Origin: Patescibacteria group bacterium
Lineage (GTDB): Bacteria; Patescibacteria; Microgenomatia; Daviesbacterales; UBA10151
Direction of reading: 5' to 3'
DNA length: 9,542 nucleotides
Assembly: GCA_023380995.1 (NCBI GenBank)
Contig: JAMCTD010000055.1
Location: 1-9,542, forward strand
The translations under genes were made by a program, and so were the position numbers. Each line of letters begins with the position of its first letter. Positions within the stretch are counted from its first letter, which is position 1. Of this stretch, positions 7,715 through 9,542 are shown in pieces. The notes beneath the pieces were generated by a model. The model did not search any database, was not told where the DNA came from, and saw nothing but the letters and a program-made list of their open reading frames with translations.

Positions 7715-8884
7715 TCAATTAAATAGCGATAAATTAGGAATAGGGGCTGTATTTGCAAGTATAAAATTTTGGGCATAGAGATATATTGCCAAAAGTATTA
7801 TTGGTAAAATTATTTTAAATTCCCGGCTGGTCAAAACTTTTTCAAAGGCAATTAAAATAAATGGGCTGATGGGTAGAAGATAACGGCTGATGTCACGGTG
7901 GGCGACTAGGGTAGCGGCTGTCAAATAAGTTAGAACAAAAAAAGCTAAAGGATACAATTTTTGTTTTAACAGCATTATGCCTCCCAGAAATCCTAATATA
8001 AATATATAGATAACATCTTCCAGCCAGATATCTCCTACCCAAAATTGGTGTTTATTAAAAACCTGAAAAGGGGGGAATGTTAAGTGGATATTATCGCCAC
8101 TATGGAAATAAGCCCAAAAATCACCATAAGTTTGACTGTATAAATAGAAAATTCCCAAAAGTCCTATTGGTATTAAAATAAGAGGAAAGTATCTTAAGTG
8201 ATTTAAAAAAGCTTTTTGAAAACCAATTATTTTACTTTGTATAAATAATTTATAGTGAATGTAAAGTACAAGGGCAATAAAAAGGAGTATGCCTGGAGGC
8301 CGGGTAATTTGAGAAAGCAGTCCAAAAACTCCTGCCAGCGCTAGGTTTAAAAATCTATTTGATTGTTCAAATTTCATAAAGAAGTAAACAGCGCAGATAA
8401 TAAAGAGAATGAAGGTTGGTTCTGATGAACCAACGCTGTGTACAATCAACCATCGGGCTGGCAGGATAAGGAAAATTAGGCTTAAAAAAAGCGGGTGCCC
8501 GCTTAGTTTGAAATCTTTCACTAGAAAATAAAAAGCTATGCTTGCCAGAATAGTTGATAAAAGGGAAATAAAAACCATAGATTTTAAATATCCTAAAAAG
8601 GGGGCAAATAAACTAATTAAAACAGCGTATCCCGGGAAGTGGGAAGCAAAGTAAGAAGCGGGTAAAGATTGTGGTAAGGAGGCAATAAGTTGAGGATTAT
8701 AAAAACTTTTGGCAATTACTATATATTCCAAGCCGTCGAAGTTTCTATAAATAGCGTTAAAGCCATTTCCAAAGTTTAATCCCCAAAATTGTGGTAGAGA
8801 TAAGAGGTGAGGCAGCCATACAATAAAGGTTATAGCAACAGTGATACCAGCTAAGATACTTAAATCTTTGAATTTATCGCTCAC
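7715..8884 (-). CDS. GT-C membrane glycosyltransferase, PIG-V-like
   Basis: A 389-residue polytopic membrane protein with about 11-12 hydrophobic segments. The order of conserved-looking patches resembles PIG-V/GT76 mannosyltransferases and related GT-C proteins. A first-loop acidic patch, NFDGLEYI (48-55; Asp50 as candidate catalytic residue), is followed by HFPGYAVLI (82-90), SSEPTFILF (153-161), ITRPPGILLF (193-202) and a distal SRYLLPISPF (333-342). A hydrophilic loop occupies about 252-288. It should act on the outer face of the membrane with a polyprenyl-phosphate sugar; the acceptor is unknown. The start is a GTG at 8884 placed exactly at the predicted transcription start, so the message is probably leaderless. 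It heads the minus-strand pair with the GT39-like gene. The family assignment is by motif pattern only, and another GT-C family is possible. Confidence 0.68.
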   Translation of the reverse strand: MSDKFKDLSILAGITVAITFIVWLPHLLSLPQFWGLNFGNGFNAIYRNFDGLEYIVIAKSFYNPQLIASLPQSLPASYFASHFPGYAVLISLFAPFLGYLKSMVFISLLSTILASIAFYFLVKDFKLSGHPLFLSLIFLILPARWLIVHSVGSSEPTFILFIICAVYFFMKFEQSNRFLNLALAGVFGLLSQITRPPGILLFIALVLYIHYKLFIQSKIIGFQKAFLNHLRYFPLILIPIGLLGIFYLYSQTYGDFWAYFHSGDNIHLTFPPFQVFNKHQFWVGDIWLEDVIYIFILGFLGGIMLLKQKLYPLAFFVLTYLTAATLVAHRDISRYLLPISPFILIAFEKVLTSREFKIILPIILLAIYLYAQNFILANTAPIPNLSLFN

Positions 8885-8895
8885 TAGTCTATTAT
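8868..8895 (+). promoter_or_regulatory. Rightward half of a bidirectional leaderless promoter
   Basis: TTGAAT (8868-8873, 4 of 6 to the -35 consensus) and TATTAT (8890-8895, 5 of 6 to the -10 consensus) are 16 bp apart. Six bases later comes the A of the ATG at 8902, so the mRNA would begin on the start codon. The -10 box shares bases 8891-8895 with the -10 box of the leftward promoter. The -35 lies inside the coding region of the divergent PIG-V-like gene. No Shine-Dalgarno motif is present before the ATG. Confidence 0.5.
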
Positions 8896-8920
8896 ATCAG
8901 TATGTCTCAGAAACTTTCAG
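8891..8920 (-). promoter_or_regulatory. Leftward half of a bidirectional leaderless promoter, perfect extended -10
   Basis: Read on the minus strand, TGATATAAT is a perfect extended -10 (TGn plus TATAAT, hexamer at 8896 to 8891). A modest -35, CTGAAA (8920 to 8915, 4 of 6), lies 18 bp upstream. Six bases (AGACTA) then separate the -10 from the GTG start codon at 8884, so the predicted first transcribed base is the G of the start codon. The -35 lies inside the divergent GT2 gene. This would drive the PIG-V-like and GT39-like pair. Confidence 0.65.
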
Positions 8921-9542
8921 TCTTTTTTCCGGTCTTTAACGAAGAAGGGAATATTGGTGATACTGTAAAAAAGGCTATTGATGTTTTAAAGCGTCTTAAA
9001 GTCGAGTATGAGGTTATTGTAGTTGATGATGGATCAAAAGATGGGACTGCCAGGATTTTGGATAATTTAGCCAAAGAAAACAGGAATATTAAAGTTATTC
9101 ACCATCTTAAAAACTTAGGGTATGGAGAGGCTCTAAAGTCTGGTTTTTATAATGCTCGTTTTAATACCATAGTGTATACGGACGGAGACGGGCAGTTTGA
9201 TTTTTCAGAAGTTACCAAATTTTTGGAAAAAATTAAGGATAATGATTTAGTTATCGGGTATAGATTAAAAAGGCAGGATCCATTTTTAAGAAAACTTTTT
9301 GGTAAAGGTTGGAGATTAACTTTACTTACTATTTTTGGTTTAAGGCTTAAGGATGTAGATTGTGGTTTTAAGATGGTTTCTAAGGATGTTTTGGAAAAAG
9401 TGCCGCATCTTGAGTCTCAAAGAGGAGCCATGATTAATGCAGAGTTGGCAATTAAAGCCAAAAAGTATGGTTTTAGAGTTGATCAGGTGGGAGTAAATCA
9501 TTATCCCAGATTATCCGGCAGGCCAACCGGAGCAAGTGTCAG
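8902..9542 (+). CDS. GT2 family polyprenyl-phosphate glycosyltransferase (3'-truncated)
   Basis: An open frame runs from the ATG at 8902 to the window edge (213 codons plus 2 bases) with no stop, so the C-terminus is missing. It is a GT-A fold GT2 enzyme: LSVFFPVFNEEGNI (5-18), VIVVDDGSKDGT (38-49), NLGYGEALKSGF (71-82), YTDGDGQFD (92-100; D94 and D96 bind metal and nucleotide sugar), DLVIGYRLKRQD (115-126), KDVDCGFKMVS (150-160) and NHYPRLSGRPTGAS (199-212). This pattern is typical of undecaprenyl- or dolichol-phosphate sugar synthases, which charge a lipid carrier on the cytoplasmic face; members of this type often continue into one or more C-terminal membrane segments. The substrate sugar is not evident. 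It is divergent from the PIG-V-like gene across 17 bp and is predicted to be leaderless. It differs clearly from the GT2 domain at 4720-5907 and lacks a visible GtrA part. Confidence 0.88.
   Translation, partial: MSQKLSVFFPVFNEEGNIGDTVKKAIDVLKRLKVEYEVIVVDDGSKDGTARILDNLAKENRNIKVIHHLKNLGYGEALKSGFYNARFNTIVYTDGDGQFDFSEVTKFLEKIKDNDLVIGYRLKRQDPFLRKLFGKGWRLTLLTIFGLRLKDVDCGFKMVSKDVLEKVPHLESQRGAMINAELAIKAKKYGFRVDQVGVNHYPRLSGRPTGASV

Follow-up and report, generated by a model that had tools for sequence, protein, structure and literature searches.

A symmetric -10 core between divergent glycosyltransferase genes of a Daviesbacteria-type bacterium as a candidate promoter for two leaderless messages

This study provided evidence that the short gap between two divergent glycosyltransferase genes, located in a window of 9,542 nucleotides (the whole stretch of DNA that was analysed), is probably a compact two-way promoter of the housekeeping-sigma type, with transcription starts at or near both start codons and with both mRNAs leaderless. 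RNA polymerase carrying the housekeeping sigma factor would bind a common core in either orientation, reading TGATATAAT toward the minus-strand gene and, when flipped, the overlapping TATTAT toward the plus-strand gene. Transcription would then start on, or a few bases from, each start codon, and ribosomes would engage the 5'-terminal start codon of both mRNAs. We prefer this explanation because of the exact geometry of the gap, including its reciprocal -7/-11 positions, the genome-wide peak of -10 motifs at position -12 in relatives, and the opposed extended -10 elements in 30 of 38 orthologous gaps, and also because TATAAT lies six bases from GTG in all five loci of the same core class and a doubly leaderless 23-bp form is present in relatives. 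Against it, the four class relatives lack the six-base plus-side spacing, the plus-strand -10 has neither a TG nor a T at -18, and the strict 18-bp pattern is not enriched. For the window itself, we infer the start positions, the activity in both directions, and the leaderless translation from the DNA sequence.

By its protein and DNA relatives, the window belongs with Candidatus Daviesbacteria in the Patescibacteria; P0002, at 82% identity, is among the nearer relatives. The features considered are the following.

7715..8884, minus strand: the minus gene, encoding a 389-aa membrane protein, a GT39/PMT-like glycosyltransferase as assigned by relatives
8902..9540, plus strand: the plus gene, encoding a GT2 glycosyltransferase (PF00535, E 1.2e-27), truncated by the window end
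8890..8896, no strand: TATTATA, the shared -10 core of the proposed bidirectional promoter; the heptamer is also present in the gaps of L001, L004, L019 and L096
8890..8895, plus strand: TATTAT, candidate -10 of the plus gene, six bases before ATG 8902, lacking a TG extension
8891..8899, minus strand: TGATATAAT, extended -10 of the minus gene, six bases before GTG 8884
8884, minus strand: predicted transcription start on the first base of GTG, from the -10 distance
8902, plus strand: predicted transcription start on the first base of ATG, from the -10 distance; it doubles as the -18 T of the minus promoter
8868..8873, plus strand: TTGAAT, possible weak -35 of the plus promoter, matching TTGACA at 4/6, 16 bp from TATTAT and inside the minus gene
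8915..8920, minus strand (read 8920-8915): CTGAAA, possible weak -35 of the minus promoter, matching TTGACA at 4/6, 18 bp from TATAAT and inside the plus gene

An earlier note on this DNA had described the two genes as divergent glycosyltransferases. For the plus gene, this description is borne out by PF00535, and for the minus gene it comes by way of relatives, since the minus protein (7715..8884) gave no Pfam match of its own. Its 78% identical homolog P0036 carries the name glycosyltransferase family 39 and matches PMT_2 below the threshold, and the plus-gene relative in L002 is a 731-aa fusion of GT2 and PMT_2. Carrier-lipid glycosylation is a reasonable putative role of the gene pair.

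Regarding the geometry of the gap, the minus GTG at 8884 and the plus ATG at 8902, each taken as the first ATG, GTG or TTG after an in-frame stop, are separated by 17 bases and lie 18 bp apart from start to start. The sequence facts claimed previously, namely the start codons, the TATTATA core, the six-base spacing on both strands, and the 18-bp distance, all proved exact on re-reading. The minus hexamer TATAAT occupies 8896-8891, with the TG one base upstream at 8899-8898. If the starts are 8884 and 8902, position -7 of each promoter coincides with -11 of the other (T at 8895 and A at 8891), and the gap then shows the overlapping opposed -10s with paired -7/-11 by which the 18-bp class of bidirectional promoters is recognized. 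A T at -18, which is favourable and non-essential, is found in the minus promoter (8902 is A on the plus strand) and is missing from the plus promoter (8884 is C). The minus gene combines a -10 motif from -12 with the lack of a Shine-Dalgarno (SD) sequence, as leaderless genes do. As for the proposal that each -35 is located inside the other gene, candidates were indeed found there, but both are poor matches to the consensus.

The statistics on start regions were computed on the genomes of relatives rather than on the window's own genome. In 34 Daviesbacteria-type loci, TANNNT at -12 preceded 14.75% of 495 candidate start ATGs versus 1.66% of 1990 internal ATGs, and the extended motif TGnTANNNT preceded 8.08% versus 0.00%, with no excess of SD-like words at starts (13.7%, versus 13.0% inside genes). 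Planctomycete loci, used for comparison, showed no -12 peak and had SD-like words at 25.5% of starts versus 12.2% inside genes. The peak in the Daviesbacteria-type loci survived removal of the glycosyltransferase pair's own starts, both for TANNNT (53/439 versus 13.6 per control position) and for the extended -10 (22/439 versus 0.82). In two large contigs, where starts were called by coding potential and start-codon type only, TANNNT stood at -12 of 16.9% of 498 and 16.5% of 486 non-operon starts, and one base off, at -11, the values dropped to 4.8% and 2.7%; operon-internal starts carried it at -12 in 12.1% of 280 and 11.3% of 265 cases, and their SD-like words were moderately raised. Across the 1529 called starts of two related genomes, TGnTANNNT from -12 was found 97 times, versus 4.4 per control position and 2 at -11. 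The signal in other Microgenomates/CPR loci was smaller and unclear, coming from few starts (8/159, 6/67 and 6/113 at -12 versus 4.6, 1.9 and 2.9 per control), and TANNNT at -12 was seen in none of the six candidate ATGs of the window's other genes. Since the six-base distance between -10 and start is a genome-wide signature in the relatives, leaderless initiation is probably common in the lineage. Further, head-to-head leaderless-type starts are not rare: divergent pairs with TANNNT at -12/-13 on both sides numbered 16/109 and 12/95, slightly above the 12.6 and 8.2 given by independence.

The same two related genomes allowed each of the two elements to be evaluated on its own. TGnTATAAT was found at -12 of 16 of the 1529 starts versus 0.54 per control position, a roughly 30-fold enrichment, so nearly all of its matches at -12 are excess. 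TATTAT without TG was found at -12 of 4/1529 starts versus 1.57 per control position (2.5-fold on four sites), and TANNNT without TG, with at most one mismatch to TATAAT, at 70/1529 versus 11.2. By these counts, the minus element can be placed beyond chance and the plus element moderately so; the minus promoter TGATATAAT is very likely real, and the plus promoter TATTAT is likely real, with a weaker case than the minus one.

The divergent glycosyltransferase pair is kept in 38 distinct loci, the window included, and two opposed extended -10s were present in 30 of these 38 gaps; shuffling the intergenic sequence 500 times gave a mean of 0.6 and a maximum of 5. These data bear on the idea that the motifs are no more than a coincidence in a short, AT-rich gap that promotes transcription in neither direction. 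A G+C content of about 35%, the occurrence of TANNNT at 52/1529 starts per control position, and the presence of bare TANNNTA, the least that an 18-bp overlap requires, in 34/38 gaps, which counts against specificity, would agree with a coincidence, but the enrichment of TGnTATAAT at -12 and the excess of opposed extended -10s far above the shuffles make it very improbable.

The predicted starts in the 38 gaps were separated by 47 bp in 16 loci and by 23 bp in 14 (L097 and L106 have both), and the rarer separations of opposed extended -10s were 15 bp in six loci, in which the motifs face each other or overlap, and 31, 42 and 46 bp in one locus each (46 bp in L016). Between the TG motifs, loci of the 47-bp class always have 16 bases, of highly variable sequence, and L026, with a minus protein 42% identical, also has the 47-bp distance. 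Among opposed extended -10 pairs, 47 bp showed no clear excess genome-wide; therefore, the 47-bp clustering is a property of the locus and partly of shared descent, and kinship contributes to the clustering of separations in general. The genome-wide histogram of opposed extended -10s, with peaks at 18 and 23 bp, was set aside as evidence because self-overlap of the motif favours these two distances.

In the 23-bp class, the overlapping extended -10s form the palindrome ATGNTANCAT, and in L008, L011, L012 and L021 both start codons are located six bases from it and 23 bp from each other. Six bases on both sides were counted in 7/33 loci (the window, L008, L010, L011, L012, L018 and L021) by a -10 caller that is biased toward gaps near six and that gave no call for L016, L026, L102 and L103, L019 being omitted.

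A further observation concerns the plus-side -10 of the 47-bp class, which is TGCTACACT in 15 of the 16 loci (L002, L003, L005, L006, L007, L009, L010, L013, L014, L015, L097, L104, L106, L111 and L112) and also in L016, unchanged though far from the consensus. It is rare genome-wide, with two occurrences in each of two genomes, and might be either a weak promoter under constraint or the site of a regulator. The conservation of so poor a -10, and likewise the near-palindromic core of the window, could be explained if the gap were mainly the binding site of a regulator, which would account for the symmetry and make the promoters secondary. However, the symmetry differs by class and yet always fits the -10 logic and the distance to the start codons, and we consider a mainly regulatory site highly unlikely.

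The TATTATA core is shared by five loci, namely the window, L001, L004, L019 and L096. On their minus side, TATAAT is followed by six bases to GTG in 5/5 loci, and the TG extension is found only in the window. On their plus side, the distance from TATTAT to ATG is 6 bases in the window, 10 in L001, 12 in L004, and, as read by eye, 10 in L019 and about 21 in L096. Because the plus-side spacing differs in the other four, the doubly leaderless 18-bp form is unique to the window within this class. Such variation would be expected if the minus gene alone used a leaderless -10, the plus-strand TATTAT being a by-product of symmetry and the plus gene being transcribed from elsewhere, such as a site within the minus gene, or having a short leader. 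The strength of the minus element with its constant spacing, and the weak plus-side enrichment of TATTAT without TG, point in the same direction. Nevertheless, no second plus-strand -10 was seen near ATG 8902 when the sequence was read by eye, and a leader of a few bases, as in L001 and L004, would still use the shared core. Moreover, most orthologous gaps contain a conserved extended -10 that belongs to the plus gene, and therefore a promoter in the gap is its usual state. We regard transcription of the minus gene alone from this core as possible, though rather unlikely.

Under the preferred explanation of a two-way promoter with two leaderless mRNAs, the 18-bp form would be a lineage-specific state of a promoter region that also takes the form of separate promoters at 47 bp and of a shared palindrome at 23 bp, the shared core at 18 bp being the third state. 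The alignment of the gap over relatives, which the earlier note had proposed as a check, gave a divided result: the divergent pair and the opposed -10s were kept (30/38), but TATTATA was found in only 5/38 gaps and the 18-bp double geometry in the window only. The case that it had set in advance as refuting, the same pair with a longer gap and no such symmetric core, was frequent (47 bp in 16/38, two of these also with the 23-bp palindrome). Its description of both messages as leaderless agrees with the leaderless-type geometry genome-wide and with the 23-bp form having six bases on both sides at L008, L011, L012 and L021, but only the minus spacing is kept in the TATTATA class.

Concerning the history of the locus, the promoter classes need at least 12 changes on the minus-gene protein tree (0/200 shuffles as low) and 15 changes on the plus-gene protein tree (16/200 as low), and the TATTATA class needs 2 and 4 changes, respectively, on trees that are quick searches with many weak forks and on which the classes are not cleanly grouped; the class labels of L016, L026, L102, L103, L106, L109, L019 and L096 were assigned by eye. 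We read these numbers as switching of promoter classes and/or recombination at the locus. The TATTATA gap and start region of L001 and L019 closely match those of the window. The minus protein of L001, however, shows 68% identity and falls with L016 and L108 in the quick tree (L019 is filled to only 22%). This contrast is a hint of recombination near the promoter.

The doubly leaderless shared -10 in its 23-bp form recurs elsewhere, as judged by pattern searches. CAY-N6-ATGNTANCAT-N6-RTG matched 12 sites in 10 of 45 family genomes, versus one for the reversed control pattern; 11 of these 12 sites open ORFs of at least 120 aa both ways, and four of them are the glycosyltransferase pair. When the flanks around ATGNTANCAT were altered, N4/N4 gave one site and N9/N9 none. 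At the 42 sides of 21 ATGNTANCAT sites in two genomes, ORFs of at least 80 aa start six bases away five times, seven bases away three times, and at other distances up to 15 bases twice. Class-wide, 38 sites, including the 12 family sites, were obtained in 35 of 373 genomes versus 2 control sites. Examination of 32 of the 38 revealed 17 with ORFs of at least 80 aa starting in both directions, 7 of RecG type, with a RecG-like gene on one side and a similar ORF of 35-39 aa on the other, and 8 that do not resemble gene pairs. The recurring pairs were the glycosyltransferase pair (4), FAD-oxidase/pyridine-nucleotide oxidoreductase (4), recG/small ORF (7) and dUTPase/MBL-fold (2), one example of each family having been tested and the others assigned by likeness of their first 40 residues.

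In L222-L228, at locus positions of about 1501-1528, the RecG-like gene is divergent from a basic, hydrophobic ORF of 35-39 aa over the 23-bp palindromic -10; Pfam RecG_wedge was found in L222, the one tested on the RecG side, and the small ORF had no Pfam match in the two tested. The ORF beside recG is perhaps an unannotated leaderless small protein. In L195, L200, L202 and L206, FAD-oxidase and pyridine-nucleotide oxidoreductase-like genes (Pfam for L202 only) have a common 23-bp palindromic -10, with both starts six bases off.

For the 18-bp form, the expected enrichment of the strict double pattern was not borne out (10 sites versus 9 control sites in the 45 family genomes), and one of the 10 sites opens two long ORFs. 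When the 18-bp pattern was loosened, TG having to be present on one side, it matched 30 times by strand, at 26 places, versus 6 control matches; the 30 were mostly single leaderless-type genes, 1/30 having two ORFs of at least 80 aa. Since the strict form is not enriched and the looser form so seldom has two long ORFs, the 18-bp version of the window is a rare variant. Several of the looser matches belong to one family beginning MIILGIETSCDET (L241, L246, L248, L250, L251, L253 and L254), presumably TsaD-like, which has TTAAAAT or similar six bases before the start in several genomes and is a further leaderless candidate.

On the evidence from the locus and from these sites, it is an evenly balanced proposition that in Microgenomates a symmetric -10, either ATGNTANCAT or TATTATA, forms the entire promoter and 5' region of two genes and fixes their leaderless starts 23 or 18 bp apart. 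Within this reading, the maintenance of divergence at the locus with geometries of 18, 23 or 47 bp suggests selection for linked expression of both enzymes. The two transcripts had also been called mutually exclusive. Opposing polymerases cannot bind together, but the wording is too strong, as five E. coli bidirectional promoters, when tested, fired too rarely at basal level for competition to play a role, according to the available text of PMC12825309. Given steric exclusion with low basal firing, the expression should therefore be taken as exclusive occupancy and not as a switch. The window brings symmetric bidirectional -10s together with leaderless mRNAs, both known phenomena, in a bacterial group that is largely uncultured. 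If mapped 5' ends agree with the predicted starts, start-codon positions would mark promoters in these genomes and allow re-annotation of gene starts, and the recurring gene pairs could serve to test a coupling of two genes by polymerase orientation.

Bacterial bidirectional promoters with a symmetric -10 were reportedly described by Warman et al. in 2021. As far as the available texts of PMC10268837 and PMC12825309 go, 18 bp is the commonest start separation of such promoters, with reciprocal -7/-11 positions, and the window resembles them in its common -10, its 18-bp separation, and its -7/-11 reciprocity; the 23-bp separation, common in E. coli bidirectional promoters in the same texts, is also found in the window's relatives. 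Leaderless genes that carry TANNNT some 12 bp upstream of the start codon are well described in the text seen of PMC3160421 and PMC12340547, with a motif and a distance identical to those found here, and the extended TG is reported in low-GC genomes too (PMC3160421). Unlike the window, both of these papers describe single genes; the word 'divergent' is absent from both main texts, and 'Patescibacteria' is absent from the main text of PMC12340547. The literature matches listed, mostly without subscription papers or supplements, held no report of leaderless genes in Patescibacteria or CPR; where 'leaderless' stands beside 'Patescibacteria' or 'Candidate Phyla Radiation' in the text available of PMC12641178, PMC6851277 and PMC10434106, it has other senses or belongs to references only. 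Similarly, no doubly leaderless divergent or bidirectional promoter was found in the matches listed, including the accessible parts of PMC5648196, PMC6640164 and PMC7566282.

In the accessible part of PMC5648196, the lysG-lysE pair of M. tuberculosis is similar in having divergent genes, overlapping promoters, and one leaderless transcript, and differs in its 108-bp gap, its dedicated regulator, and a leaderless transcript only from the second lysE promoter. The bidirectional promoters of Pyrococcus furiosus, as presented in the available text of PMC6640164, also have a symmetric core that drives both strands, with 49 bp between the starts at one tested promoter; however, they work through TATA/BRE/TBP, and the tested promoter yields antisense RNA and not two leaderless mRNAs. 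Based on these comparisons, the arrangement in the window is a variant of known bidirectional promoters. The observation of the earlier note is confirmed, and its interpretation is partly supported. What distinguishes the window from the bacterial bidirectional promoters is that both predicted starts fall on start codons, and therefore the promoter geometry would fix the distance between the two coding sequences.
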